From Candidatus Bathyarchaeota archaeon (lineage in GTDB: Archaea > Thermoproteota > Bathyarchaeia > Bathyarchaeales > Bathycorpusculaceae): 32,963 nt of DNA. The number at the start of each line of letters is the position of its first letter. Position 1 is the first letter of the stretch. The position numbers were made by a program, and so were the translations under genes. The notes below the pieces were generated by a model that searched no databases, was not told the origin of the DNA, and was given only the letters and a program-made list of their open reading frames with translations. Below, piece by piece: positions 210 to 4,034 of the stretch. The stretch covers positions 1-32,963 of the forward strand of contig PLNS01000016.1 in assembly GCA_003141855.1 (NCBI GenBank), in the 5' to 3' direction.

Positions 210-1622
210 ATGCCCGAAGATAAAGAGTTGAGGCTTCAATGCGTACATTGCGGAGCAAAATTTCCTATTTATCCACTCAGAAGCAACTGCGAAATATGCG
301 GTGGAATATTAGAATACAAAGCAAACTTGCCTGAGAAACACGCGGTCAAGTTTTCTGGAACGCTTCGGTTCTGGAGGTACAAACAGTTGCTTCCCCCAGT
401 GCGTAACATGGTTAGTTTAGGTGAAGGCGGAACACCCCTGCACAAAGCTGATAGACTCGCAAAAAGCATGGGGTTAACAAAACTTTACTTGAAAGATGAA
501 ACAAGAAACCCAACAAACTCCTACAGAGACCGCGCTGCAGCGCTTTTAACGTCAAATGCTATTGACCTGCAATCAGACACGCTGGTATGCGCCACTAACG
601 GCAACATGGGCGCCTCTCTGGCTGCGTACTCAGCAAAAGCTGGATTAAACTGCCACGTAATTGTTCCCAAAGAAGTTGACGTAGGAAAACTCGCCCAGAT
701 GCTTGCCTACGATGCAATAATCGAGGAGTACGGTGAAATAATCGACGGCTCAATTTGCAAGGCAGATGCATTGGCAAAAGAAACAGGCTGGTACCAAGCA
801 ACCGCTGAACTCAACCCCCTCGTGGTGGAAGCTCAAAAAACCATCGCCTATGAAATCTTTGAACAAAGTGAAATCCCAGAATGGGTGCTAGTTTCTATGG
901 GAAGCGGCGGCACCATTTACTCCATTTGGAAAGGATTCAAAGAGCTAAAAGAGCTCGGCTTGACGAGAACAGCCCCAAAAATGGTCGGAGTTCAACCTGA
1001 AGGATGCGCTTCCATAGTGAACGCTGCTAAAGGCTCTGAACCGAGAAAAGCCTGCAGTCATTCCACCCGCGCCCTTGCCATCCTTGTAGGCAACCCACTG
1101 CAAAGCGAACTGGCAATTAAAGCGATAAATGATTCAGAAGGTTTAGCCTTAACCGTGTCGGATCAGGACATTCTGGCTGCCGAGCTTCAGATTGCAAAAC
1201 TAGAAGGAGTTTTCGCGGAACCAGCCAGCGCAATAACGGTGGCAGCGTTGAAAAAACTATTAGAAGAAAACAGAATCGCAAGAGACAGTAGCGTCGTATG
1301 TCTAATCACGGGAAGCGGACTTAAAGCCACTGACGTGCTGCAAGCATTGAATAAGAAGCAGAAAACCGCAGGTTTAGGGTTGGAGATAACCACTAAAGAG
1401 AAAATTCTTCGAATTCTAAACGAAAAAGAAACGTACGGTTATGATTTGTGGAAACAACTTGGCAAAATCATGACTCGTGCGGCGGTGTATCAGCACTTGA
1501 ATGAGTTGTCACAAAAAGGGCTAATTGTGGGGTATGAGGAAGGGGGGAAGAGATTCTTCAGAATAACCGAGCATGGCAGGAAGGCTTTGGCAGCTTTTGA
1601 TGAGTTAAAACTTCTTATGTAA
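210..1622 (+). CDS. Threonine-synthase-like protein (PLP lysine replaced by Arg) fused to a PadR-like winged helix
   Basis: Fold-type II PLP-enzyme architecture. An N-terminal zinc ribbon (C11, C14, C27, C30) is followed by a threonine-synthase-like domain (about 60-375) with EGGTPL (72-77), KDE (95-97), a phosphate-loop-like ATNGNMGAS (128-136), GSGGT (231-235), a VFAEPASA segment and TGSGLK near 370. In active threonine synthases the PLP Schiff-base lysine lies in NPTGSFKDR. Here the same position reads NPTNSYRDR, so Lys is Arg106 (codon AGA at 525-527). Residues about 393-470 form a PadR-type winged helix (YGYDLWKQL, AVYQHLNELSQKGLI, then a wing rich in K/R). Loss of the lysine plus a DNA-binding domain argues for a ligand-sensing regulator rather than an enzyme (inference). 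It lies 52 bp upstream of an ECF transporter gene whose promoter holds a 9-bp palindrome, a plausible target. Alternative: an enzyme with altered chemistry. No strong ribosome binding site precedes the ATG. Confidence 0.85.
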   Translation: MPEDKELRLQCVHCGAKFPIYPLRSNCEICGGILEYKANLPEKHAVKFSGTLRFWRYKQLLPPVRNMVSLGEGGTPLHKADRLAKSMGLTKLYLKDETRNPTNSYRDRAAALLTSNAIDLQSDTLVCATNGNMGASLAAYSAKAGLNCHVIVPKEVDVGKLAQMLAYDAIIEEYGEIIDGSICKADALAKETGWYQATAELNPLVVEAQKTIAYEIFEQSEIPEWVLVSMGSGGTIYSIWKGFKELKELGLTRTAPKMVGVQPEGCASIVNAAKGSEPRKACSHSTRALAILVGNPLQSELAIKAINDSEGLALTVSDQDILAAELQIAKLEGVFAEPASAITVAALKKLLEENRIARDSSVVCLITGSGLKATDVLQALNKKQKTAGLGLEITTKEKILRILNEKETYGYDLWKQLGKIMTRAAVYQHLNELSQKGLIVGYEEGGKRFFRITEHGRKALAAFDELKLLM

Positions 1623-1634
1623 CTTCAGGCAAGG

Positions 1635-1665
1635 TTTAATAAATAGTATAGTCACAACTATACTA
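1635..1665 (+). promoter_or_regulatory. Promoter and candidate operator of the ECF transporter operon
   Basis: A TATA-like element, TTTAATAAAT (1635-1644), runs directly into a perfect inverted repeat: TAGTATAGT (1644-1652), spacer CACA, ACTATACTA (1657-1665). With TATA at 1635-1644 transcription should start near 1665, so a protein on the palindrome would sit between TATA and start site and repress. The adjacent upstream gene encodes a PadR-like winged helix, a family that binds such AT-rich palindromes as dimers. The match of regulator to site is inference. Confidence 0.6.
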
Positions 1666-1674
1666 AGTGATTTA

Positions 1675-2292
1675 GTGATGACCAACCTAAAAACACAAGA
1701 AGCTAATGCACCAAAAGACGAAAAAAACCAAAAATATTCCCCAATAGAACACGAAACTCCTATGAATAATAATTCTCAGGGAACCGCATTCAAAATCGCA
1801 ACAGCCGCAATCTTTGCAGCACTCGTCGCGGCCGCCACGCTCTTGTTTGTGATTCCTATTCCCGCTACCAGCGGATACTTCAACCTTGGCGAGACACTCA
1901 TCTACATTGCAGCATTACTGTTTGGGCCACTTGTGGGTGCAATAGCAGGCGCAGGAGCAACAATAGCTGATGTTCTTGTAGCTGCCCAGTTTGCGCCAGG
2001 AACCTTCACAATCAAAGGAATAGAAGGCTTCCTTGTTGGCTTCTTAACCAAGAAATTAAACCAAAAAACCAAAAGCATCACTTTGAGCGCCACGATAGCG
2101 ATTGTGATTGGTGGGTTTGAGATGGTTTTAGGATACTTCCTCTACGAACAACTCGTTTTAGGTTACCCGTTCGCTTTAGCACTCGTCGAAGTCCCATTCA
2201 ACATCATACAAATGCTCATAGGCTTAATCATAGCTGTACCTATAATGCACGCGGTACTGCGTATTTTCCCACAACTTAAAAGCCAGTTTTAA
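1675..2292 (+). CDS. ECF transporter S component (substrate-binding membrane subunit)
   Basis: Integral membrane protein of 205 aa with a polar N-terminal stretch of about 40 residues and then five to six hydrophobic segments. The GYFNLGETLIYIAALLFGP segment followed by a glycine/alanine-rich helix is typical of the ECF_ribofla_trS-like S components (PF07155), which capture a vitamin or precursor and pair with shared EcfT and EcfA units. None of those partners is in the window. Substrate cannot be read from sequence; riboflavin, a thiamine precursor or a B6 vitamer are all possible. The reading begins GTG-ATG (1675 or 1678), a few bases after the palindromic promoter, so the message is nearly leaderless; M30 is a more distant alternative start. 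It ends 13 bp before the AIR-synthase-like gene, suggesting an operon. Confidence 0.8.
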   Translation: MMTNLKTQEANAPKDEKNQKYSPIEHETPMNNNSQGTAFKIATAAIFAALVAAATLLFVIPIPATSGYFNLGETLIYIAALLFGPLVGAIAGAGATIADVLVAAQFAPGTFTIKGIEGFLVGFLTKKLNQKTKSITLSATIAIVIGGFEMVLGYFLYEQLVLGYPFALALVEVPFNIIQMLIGLIIAVPIMHAVLRIFPQLKSQF

Positions 2293-2305
2293 CAGAGGAT
2301 AAAGC

Positions 2306-3313
2306 ATGAAGCTTCCGCCTGGAAAAATTCCAATAGACATCCTAAAAGAAGTAGTTTTCAAAAACCTCGGCGCCACCCGCAGCGAAGTCACCTTGGGACC
2401 AGCCGCAGGAGTCGACGGCGCAGTCTTGGATTTTGGAAACAAAAACGCCATAGTCTCCATGGACCCCATCACGGGCGCCGTTGAACGCATCGGCTGGTTA
2501 GCCATAAACGTAAACGCCAACGACGTCGCCACCTTCGGCGTGGAACCAGCGTTCTTCTTCTCATGCCTGCTCTTGCCCGAGAACGCGGACAGCAAAATCG
2601 TTGAAACCATAAGCGCCCAAATGCATACCGCGGCAAAGGAACTGGGCATAGCCATCGTGGGCGGACACTGCGAATCAACACCTGGCTTAGCTAACCCGAT
2701 TGTTGTGGGCTGCATCATGGGCTTAACTGAAAAAGGCAAATACGTTACCGCTGCAGGCGCCAAAGCAGGCGACAAACTCATTTTAACTAAGAGCGCGGGT
2801 ATCGAGGGCACAGCCATCTTAGCTTCCGACCGCGAAGCGCAACTGGGAAAAATCTTTAATCCTGAAATTCTTGAGAGCGCTAAAGGCTTCTACAAACAAA
2901 TCAGCGTCGTAAAAGACGCCTTAACCGCTTACAGAGCAGGCGGAGTCCATGCTATGCATGACCCAACCGAAGGCGGCATCCTAAACGGCATCCACGAAAT
3001 GGCCGACGCTGCAGGCTTAGGCGCAAGAGTTTTTGAGGAGAAAATCACGGTTGAGCCTGAAACGGCTAAAATCTGCAGGTTCTACGAGATTGACCCCTTA
3101 CAACTTATCAGTTCAGGTGCACTGCTTATCGCCGCCGACCCACAAGCAGCAGACAAAATAATCGATGCCTTATGCCAGGAGCACATTTACGCTGACGTCA
3201 TCGGCGAATTCAACCCAAACCCCAACAAACGCATACTCATGCACAAAGACGATTCGGCGGAGATGCTGCCAAGACCCGTCTCAGACCACCTGTGGATTGC
3301 ATTAACACGTTAA
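2306..3313 (+). CDS. AIR synthase-related protein (HypE/ThiL/SelD/PurM superfamily)
   Basis: 335 aa with the two-domain PurM fold. An N-terminal ATP-binding half has GPAAGVDGAVLDFG (the usual acidic pair is reduced to one Asp), then INVNANDVATFGVEPAFF (the NDV...GA.P motif of HypE-like proteins) and GGHCES. The C-terminal half has HDPTEGGILNGIHEMA, the counterpart of DPTRGG in HypE. It lacks the C-terminal PRIC tail that carries the thiocarboxamide in true HypE, which is present on the gene at 28080, so it is not the hydrogenase factor. Being cotranscribed with an ECF S component suggests handling of the imported compound, for example a small-molecule kinase-like step as in ThiL (inference). 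Start ATG 2306 lies 13 bp after the preceding stop, with AGAGGA upstream. Confidence 0.75.
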   Translation: MKLPPGKIPIDILKEVVFKNLGATRSEVTLGPAAGVDGAVLDFGNKNAIVSMDPITGAVERIGWLAINVNANDVATFGVEPAFFFSCLLLPENADSKIVETISAQMHTAAKELGIAIVGGHCESTPGLANPIVVGCIMGLTEKGKYVTAAGAKAGDKLILTKSAGIEGTAILASDREAQLGKIFNPEILESAKGFYKQISVVKDALTAYRAGGVHAMHDPTEGGILNGIHEMADAAGLGARVFEEKITVEPETAKICRFYEIDPLQLISSGALLIAADPQAADKIIDALCQEHIYADVIGEFNPNPNKRILMHKDDSAEMLPRPVSDHLWIALTR

Positions 3314-3346: not shown

Positions 3347-3754
3347 TTATATCCAAATTGTATCAGGCAAGAACTTGAAATGCTCATCCCCAGTCAGAAT
3401 CTTTGCCTTAAGCACCCTGCCTGTAGCTAAAACGATTGCATCAAAGAGGCTGGGTGCATTTAGCTTAGTTTTTCGCGCGTTTTCTGCAAGTTCCAGGTAG
3501 CATTTGGCGGATTGCAAAGATAGTTTGGCATCCAAGTAAGTAATGTTTGAAGCGACAACTATTTGCTCCAACCGGGTATTGACTATTCTTTCCTCAATGC
3601 CTTCTCGGACGTATTTGCGGGCAATCTCTGCTAAAACGGTGTCAGGGGTATAGACTTCATCGGCGTCTTCCAGTATTTCTTTAACTTTGCCGCCTTTTGC
3701 GCTTCCCATGAACAGTTCAATCCAAGCGTAGGAATCAATTACGATCTTCACCAC
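3347..3754 (-). CDS. vapC: VapC-type PIN-domain ribonuclease toxin
   Basis: 135-aa PIN domain. The N-terminal acidic residue is in IVIDSYAWIE (catalytic Asp about position 7), a second acidic residue is in TVLAEIARK, and the C-terminal acidic cluster is in FDAIVLATG and KILTGDEHF. VapC toxins of this family cleave tRNA or rRNA with Mg2+. It starts with GTG at 3754 (the following codon is also GTG) and overlaps the 3' end of the antitoxin gene by 20 nt, the usual translationally coupled VapBC arrangement. The target RNA cannot be inferred. It is convergent with the AIR-synthase-like gene. Confidence 0.85.
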   Translation of the reverse strand: MVKIVIDSYAWIELFMGSAKGGKVKEILEDADEVYTPDTVLAEIARKYVREGIEERIVNTRLEQIVVASNITYLDAKLSLQSAKCYLELAENARKTKLNAPSLFDAIVLATGRVLKAKILTGDEHFKFLPDTIWI

Positions 3755-3944
3755 GGTCTTTCTCCGAAAAAGGCTTAATCCTGTCGCGATCTGCTCCGAA
3801 GGCTTTTTCTAAAACAGTCTTGCGTTGCTTTTTTATTAGTGATTGGATGGCTTCGTCGAGGCTCTCCGCGTCTAGCTTTTCTCTCAGGTGCTCTAGCGCT
3901 TCTGCTGTTTTCTTTGATACTCTGATTGTTGTCGTCTCGTTCAA
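3735..3944 (-). CDS. vapB: VapB-type antitoxin (ribbon-helix-helix)
   Basis: About 69 aa: ETTTIRVSKKTAEALEHLRE is a ribbon-helix-helix strand and first helix, followed by DEAIQSLIKK as second helix and a charged C-terminal tail that would wrap the toxin. The open frame runs further up to a GTG at 3992, but a good minus-strand TATA box (TATATTTAT, 3982-3990) overlaps that codon, so it would lie outside the transcript. A TTG at 3944 (or TTG 3959) is the more likely start and gives the length usual for VapB. Dimers probably autorepress the promoter. Family assignment is firm, the exact start less so. Confidence 0.72.
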   Translation of the reverse strand: MNETTTIRVSKKTAEALEHLREKLDAESLDEAIQSLIKKQRKTVLEKAFGADRDRIKPFSEKDRGEDRN

Positions 3945-3981
3945 AGTCGAACACCACAATCTAACTATGTATACAAGTAGA

Positions 3982-3990
3982 TAAATATAC
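3982..3990 (-). promoter_or_regulatory. vapB: TATA box of the first vapBC operon
   Basis: On the minus strand TATATTTAT lies roughly 25 nt before a likely transcription start near 3960, immediately upstream of the TTG start codons considered for vapB. Nearby GTATAC (3968-3973) is palindromic and could be part of an autoregulatory site. Confidence 0.45.
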
Positions 3991-4034
3991 ACTTAACAAG
4001 TGCAAAGTACTGCTCCTTTTCGATGTGTTAAGCG

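Follow-up and report, generated by a model that had tools for sequence, protein, structure and literature searches.

A conserved palindrome at ECF-transporter and pdxS promoters of Bathyarchaeia, probable operator of a vitamin B6 regulator derived from threonine synthase

ThiR, the archaeal thiamine regulator, joins an HTH to an enzyme-like ThiN domain. The putative regulator described here is alike in being an archaeal vitamin regulator that combines an HTH with a former enzyme domain, but both the vitamin and the enzyme domain are different. In bacteria, the PLP-sensing regulator PdxR, of the MocR subfamily of GntR, likewise joins a winged helix to the fold of a PLP enzyme, and its regulons combine pdxST, pdxK and pdxU; MocR factors are reported to be absent from Archaea (PMC5320631). 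PdxU has been placed in PF07155/COG4720 (PMC9997740). The targets predicted for the archaeal fusion, a PF07155 transporter and pdxST, coincide with those of PdxR (PMC5320631, PMC9997740). A PdxR regulon is marked by the presence of pdxST and/or pdxU, and the candidate operator of the fusion lies at the gene of the ECF S component (ECF-S) in 23 of 24, and at pdxS in five of five, fusion-bearing genomes.

The two proteins are built differently. The winged helix of PdxR is N-terminal and of GntR type; that of the fusion is C-terminal (residues 399-461), finds its best Pfam match in PadR, and has no GntR match. The PdxR sensor is a fold-type I aminotransferase, the sensor of the fusion a PALP fold-type II domain whose best structural matches are threonine synthases. 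The Schiff-base lysine is missing in most fusion members, in contrast to PdxR, and the predicted operator abuts the TATA box, unlike that of PdxR, which suggests repression. Sequences and model are best explained by a protein which works like PdxR yet has a different ancestry, and is not a PdxR/MocR member; it appears to be a widespread regulator convergent with PdxR. Fold and most PLP-pocket motifs are common to the fusion and to threonine synthase (ThrC) or PRK05638 proteins. Unlike ThrC, fusion members mostly feature Arg (or Ile, Leu, Met, Ser) in place of the PLP lysine, carry an added wHTH, and reside among B6 genes. Judged from its sequence, the fusion is a threonine synthase by descent, devoid of the catalytic lysine that defines the enzyme. 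PadR-family regulators share with it the DNA-binding domain PF03551, to which the fusion adds a PLP-fold sensor domain. The cysH-thrC fusion reported in PMC11237513 differs from the wHTH fusion. No description of a threonine-synthase/wHTH regulator of vitamin B6 was found in a search of open-access literature.

The window, i.e. the whole stretch of DNA analyzed, spans 32,963 nucleotides of a Candidatus Bathyarchaeota contig. The features surrounding the palindrome are listed in Table 1.

Table 1. Features of the window around the palindrome
Feature	Position	Strand	Basis
Fusion regulator (putative), 470 aa	210..1622	+	Pfam PF00291 and PF03551 over cut-off; orthologue cysteines; AF2 model
Arg106 codon AGA, where threonine synthases have the PLP Schiff-base lysine	525..527	+	NPTNSYRDR vs. 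NPTGSFKDR of threonine synthase
TATA-like box TTTAATAAA, abutting the dyad	1635..1643	+	Sequence reading; AT-rich stretch precedes the dyad in most relatives
Operator dyad (predicted) TAGTATAGT-CACA-ACTATACTA	1644..1665	.	Dyad search and cross-genome conservation; family consensus TAGTATAGTTNNAACTATACTA
ECF-transporter S component, PF07155 (Pfam family of PdxU)	1675..2292 (start GTG 1675 or ATG 1678)	+	E 2.7e-30
AIR-synthase-related (HypE/ThiL/SelD-like) protein	2306..3313	+	Pfam AIRS and AIRS_C

The original prediction had reported a perfect 9-bp inverted repeat, spanning the interval predicted to lead from TATA box to ECF operon start. Both points were confirmed: the halves are at 1644-1652 and 1657-1665, separated by a 4-base spacer, and the range originally indicated (1635-1678) extends from the TATA-like TTTAATAAA through the ATG at 1678, with an in-frame GTG at 1675. 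The dyad begins 21 bp 3' of the stop codon of the fusion gene and ends 9 bp 5' of this GTG, the first possible start of ECF-S. The window has no second match to the dyad at up to 3 mismatches, and matches were found in 0/100 dinucleotide shuffles of it. In the 2.39 Mb of the same genome, a single additional match within 3 mismatches was found (contig C18), mostly inside a 348-aa ORF, with a weight-matrix score below 5. The window site scores 33.0, the runner-up place in the window 4.9; training of the matrix was limited to ECF-S sites, 18 distinct ones taken from 23 genomes, with the window site among the 18. The region upstream of the fusion gene is devoid of the dyad by both motif and matrix scans, and autoregulation through such a site is therefore not indicated. 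Five genomes (G003, G005, G017, G018, G022) have either two dyads that overlap in tandem at a distance of 17 bp or one additional half.

Conservation was monitored in a set of 61 genomes, made up of the genome at hand and 60 relatives. The fusion is present in 25, the 24 other proteins being 55-79% identical to that of the window (the G005 gene is split, that of G056 partial), and the S component in 56. Fifty-five Bathyarchaeia genomes were compared, the weak ECF-S match of G053 (E 4.8e-5) being left out; the best match to TAGTATAGTTNNAACTATACTA within about 280 bp was scored at each of the 55 ECF-S genes, and at least 17/20 was taken as a site. By this measure, the dyad resides upstream of ECF-S in 23/24 fusion-bearing and 1/31 fusion-less genomes (Fisher p 3e-13, a value which ignores kinship and is inflated by it). 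Scores range from 17 to 20 in the 23 fusion-bearing genomes, and from 10 to 14 in 30 fusion-less ones; none of 1100 shuffled regions attained 17/20. The conservation across genomes is the real evidence against a chance origin of the dyad. The original prediction, which had presented the palindrome as the target of the adjacent fusion protein and had pointed to conservation near orthologous genes as one way to verify it, is thus borne out on the latter point, here and in the named loci below, and the operator reading gains support at the level of sequence comparison.

The fusion and the site each undergo 11 changes along the tree of ECF-S. They change jointly in about 3.9 of four well-supported independent pairs, and essentially never in opposite directions (sign test p 0.125, from 4 pairs only). 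In 80 named loci, nearly all from Candidatus Bathyarchaeota and overlapping the genome set, a site (at least 16/20) was found in 55/59 with an ECF-S match vs. 0/21 without one, several of the 21 stretches stopping soon past the fusion; the remaining 4 of the 59 lack the site. The median distance from site to the start of the ECF-S alignment is 21 bp. The site remains at ECF-S when the gene is located on a contig other than that of the fusion (G038, G040, G047), or 0.6-1.1 kb from it (G041, G060, G059). It is therefore an element of the ECF-S promoter, as of that of pdxS, and does not belong to the 3' end of the fusion gene as a terminator would. Two genomes deviate. G046 has the fusion and an ECF-S site of only 13/20, with a differently spaced repeat in that place. 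In G004 (L089/L041) no fusion was found, yet a 17/20 dyad is present upstream of ECF-S; this is possibly a decaying operator, or the gene of the regulator may have escaped assembly. Places with 3 mismatches in fusion-less genomes, G004 excepted, look like chance matches.

The motif scan of G003 revealed a second perfect dyad directly 5' of a gene pair read as PdxS and PdxT, the former confirmed by PF01680, the latter a reading of the ORF. pdxS occurs in 17/256 genomes of the class, and 15 of the 17 loci were scored, G052 and G204 being left out because too little upstream DNA is available. The dyad is found in the pdxS promoter of 5/5 fusion-bearing genomes (matrix scores: G003, 36.2; G047, 24.9; G050, 21.5; G186, 20.2; G018, 15.6) vs. 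0/10 fusion-less genomes (all at or below -5.3). Fusion-less here means without an Arg-type fusion match at E <1e-130, and four of the ten (G090, G091, G096, G097) have a fusion of a second, non-Arg type. Across 1241 control windows (71.6 kb, 330 bp per window), from which the pdxS locus L112 was left out, the matrix score did not exceed 6.1. On contig 96 of G003, a place inside the coding region for a GOLD-domain protein scores 22.5, indicating that single matches of such strength do arise by chance per genome. A TATA-like AT-rich stretch directly precedes the pdxS dyad in 4/5 genomes, as at ECF-S, and is poor in G018.

As the same dyad marks the pdxS-pdxT promoters of fusion-bearing genomes, the regulon is that of vitamin B6, and so, on this sequence evidence, is the pathway of the predicted ligand, a point absent from the original prediction. 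We infer a B6 substrate for the S component from its family (106 bits to PF07155, cut-off 26.7) and from the regulon, the predicted operator being common to pdxS. pdxS is over cut-off in 5/61 genomes of the relatives' set, and this scarcity in the searched relatives fits dependence on B6 uptake.

The fusion protein features zinc-ribbon-like N-terminal Cys pairs (C11, C14, C27 and C30, invariant in 23 orthologues), a degenerate threonine-synthase domain of fold-type II PLP enzymes (residues 68-368), and the PadR-like winged helix, which scores 40.1 bits against PF03551 (cut-off 27) and includes a conserved AVYQHL segment. Against the thrC model TIGR00260 it scores 201.2 bits (cut-off 167.1). 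The match to PRK05638, named 'threonine synthase', is full-length and includes the wHTH, at 397.6 bits under the cut-off of 421. R106, at the place of the lysine of NPTGSFKDR, is Arg in 23/23 aligned orthologues; the PLP-pocket loops GN(M/L)GAS, GSGGT and TGSGLK are otherwise kept. Among 136 distinct protein strings, drawn from the loci as a whole (which overlap, so that some genes are counted repeatedly, L205 and L245 being one gene), the residue is Lys in 19/19 single-domain threonine synthases; in wHTH-bearing proteins it is Arg in 86, Lys in 17, Leu in 8 (four of them, L203-L206, cut by locus ends), Ile in 3, Met in 2, and Ser in 1. The Lys-bearing subclade accounts for 17/80 named loci, and the wHTH was seen in three of its members. 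A separate Lys-bearing threonine synthase is encoded on contig C8 of the same genome. A reading of the fusion as a conventional threonine synthase was rejected, given the invariant Arg106, this separate enzyme, and the Lys of all single-domain enzymes.

The AF2 model of the fusion (mean pLDDT 82.9, pTM 0.76) superimposes on the nearest PDB threonine synthases with Z 43-46 and rmsd 1.7-2.4 A over 311-367 residues (VIA-align 2). The structure matches include Lys-less fold-type II mutants which, by their titles, were crystallised with ligands: 2tys, tryptophan synthase beta K87T, and 1d6s, O-acetylserine sulfhydrylase K41A, in the form of an external aldimine with methionine. The two set a precedent for PLP being held without the Schiff-base lysine.

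We regard it as probable that the palindrome serves a vitamin B6 regulon as its operator, and that the upstream fusion is a PLP-sensing repressor of B6 uptake and, in some relatives, of B6 synthesis. In Archaea, a site at the TATA side or in the start region suits a repressor blocking TBP/TFB or RNA polymerase; the dyad touches or overlaps this TATA side and extends across the region where transcription should start, and its symmetry suits a dimer. A dimer of winged helices would bind the dyad, which is flanked by the TATA box and the predicted start of transcription, and the bound fusion would block assembly of the archaeal preinitiation complex, repression being favored over activation. The threonine-synthase domain, its role in threonine production lost, would sense PLP, or an adduct of PLP and an amino acid, through the kept pocket, the Schiff-base lysine being dispensed with. 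Targets in the PLP pathway and a PLP-type pocket make PLP the most economical ligand, presumably as corepressor. Ample PLP would favor repression of B6 uptake, for which the ECF S component stands, as well as of pdxS-pdxT in the genomes that have it, and PLP scarcity would relieve it. If this holds true, Archaea gain a vitamin B6 regulator convergent with bacterial PdxR and built on another PLP fold, and nature offers an example of an enzyme that became a cofactor sensor on losing its catalytic lysine. A database name would be corrected too, several 'threonine synthase' proteins being probably not such, and a B6 transporter would be indicated in uncultured Bathyarchaeia, mostly lacking pdxS in the searched genomes. 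The 22-bp target would be testable in vitro with one purified protein.

The dyad could be the operator of the fusion and the signal nonetheless be an amino-acid one (threonine, homoserine phosphate), the S component importing something other than B6. This seems unlikely to us. Descent of the sensor from threonine synthase is in its favor, as is the inclusion of riboflavin-type and other S components in PF07155; an amino-acid signal is at odds with the same dyad marking pdxS in five of five fusion-bearing and none of ten fusion-less genomes, with the second-type fusions set divergently from pdxS-pdxT, and with the existence of separate Lys-bearing threonine synthases, one of them in this very genome. 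More doubtful still is the idea that the dyad is bound by some other wHTH protein, the fusion merely co-traveling with the ECF-S gene. The dyad tracks the fusion even when this and ECF-S are on different contigs, both traits shift jointly along the ECF-S tree, and the fusion has a wHTH of its own with the conserved AVYQHL, all of which must be set against the lack of a site in the upstream region of the fusion gene.

Being located 21 bp past the stop codon of the fusion and just 5' of the ECF-S start, the inverted repeat might work as RNA, either as terminator of the fusion gene or as leader hairpin or riboswitch of the ECF operon. We deem this very improbable: the repeat is kept at ECF-S and pdxS promoters distant from any fusion 3' end, lies for the most part 5' of the transcription start that the TATA-like box predicts, and is conserved at the level of primary sequence. 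As the site follows ECF-S across contigs, and no Rfam family matches window positions 1300-2400 at E up to 1, terminator and RNA element were rejected. Palindromes may form by chance in an AT-rich region such as this, but the probability left to chance is negligible, and this origin was rejected on account of the shuffles (0/100), of the genomes (23/24 vs. 1/31) and of the loci (55/59 vs. 0/21), the dyad being conserved at ECF-S and pdxS alike.

The B6 repressor reading may extend beyond Bathyarchaeia. A scan of the phylum detected wHTH-bearing relatives in other Thermoproteota, some beside ECF-S or pdxST, some named 'threonine synthase' (PRK05638). In family f28, which is of Arg type and to which the best PRK05638 matches belong, the fusion is directly 5' of the S component in 6/6 flanked loci (L228-L230, L234-L236), followed by a tandem ABC ATPase in the two loci checked (L228, L229). 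Intergenic dyads are TTAAAGTTTAAACTTTAA in L229, TTAAAGTTTTAACTTTAA in L230, which have the core AGTTNNAACT in common, and a looser CTTAAAGCACAAACTTTAAG in L235; others are weaker. Fusions of the second type, with Leu, Ile or Met at the lysine position, are divergent from ECF-S in L242 and L243, and from pdxS-pdxT in L245 (G091), as in all four family-f15 genomes with pdxS. No ECF-S or pdxS match was found near the fusion relatives of L231 (G269) and L237-L240.

In a quick tree (85 rows from the 136 proteins, the Arg type having been thinned; first 400 residues; quick search), one branch splits all wHTH-bearing proteins from single-domain enzymes (SH-aLRT 100). The Lys subclade is nested among Arg types, and this nesting suggests that the lysine may have been regained; some branches of the tree are long, leaving the order of deep forks unsure. 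The existence of the subclade also means that the label of pseudoenzyme is not valid for the whole family. We lean, with modest confidence, towards a family of B6 repressors spread over Thermoproteota, descended from threonine synthase through acquisition of a winged helix, in which most members would have lost the catalytic lysine and act as noncovalent sensors of PLP or its adducts, an independent fold-type II counterpart of PdxR, one subclade having apparently regained the lysine while keeping operator and target.

Palindromes similar to CCATATATGG or CCTATATATAGG were noticed near some second-type loci, those of CCATATATGG type near the pdxS promoter in L245 (G091), L203, L204 and L206, which feature Leu at the lysine position. 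The 639-aa gene adjacent to the fusion relative in L231 is GatE, and neighboring ORFs of similar size are present in L237, L238 and L240. L208, L209 and L228, of family f28, are over the PRK05638 cut-off, yet have Arg where the PLP lysine would be, and L228 is beside ECF-S; judging from these sequences, the name threonine synthase is probably wrong for all three.

In the window, the AIR-synthase-related gene probably shares an operon with the S component, which it adjoins in many relatives. A strong match to PF08543 (PdxK/ThiD) was found in none of 19 same-genus genomes, the one at hand included (best E 4.3e-7), and the AIR-synthase-related protein may on this ground be regarded, speculatively, as a candidate B6 salvage kinase. 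In the fusion-less G004 (L041), too, an AIR-synthase-related gene, 79% identical, comes after ECF-S. Farther downstream, at 3347-3992 on the minus strand, a PIN-domain protein (PF01850 over cut-off) and a short VapB-like partner, whose antitoxin match is below cut-off, are likely a VapBC pair.
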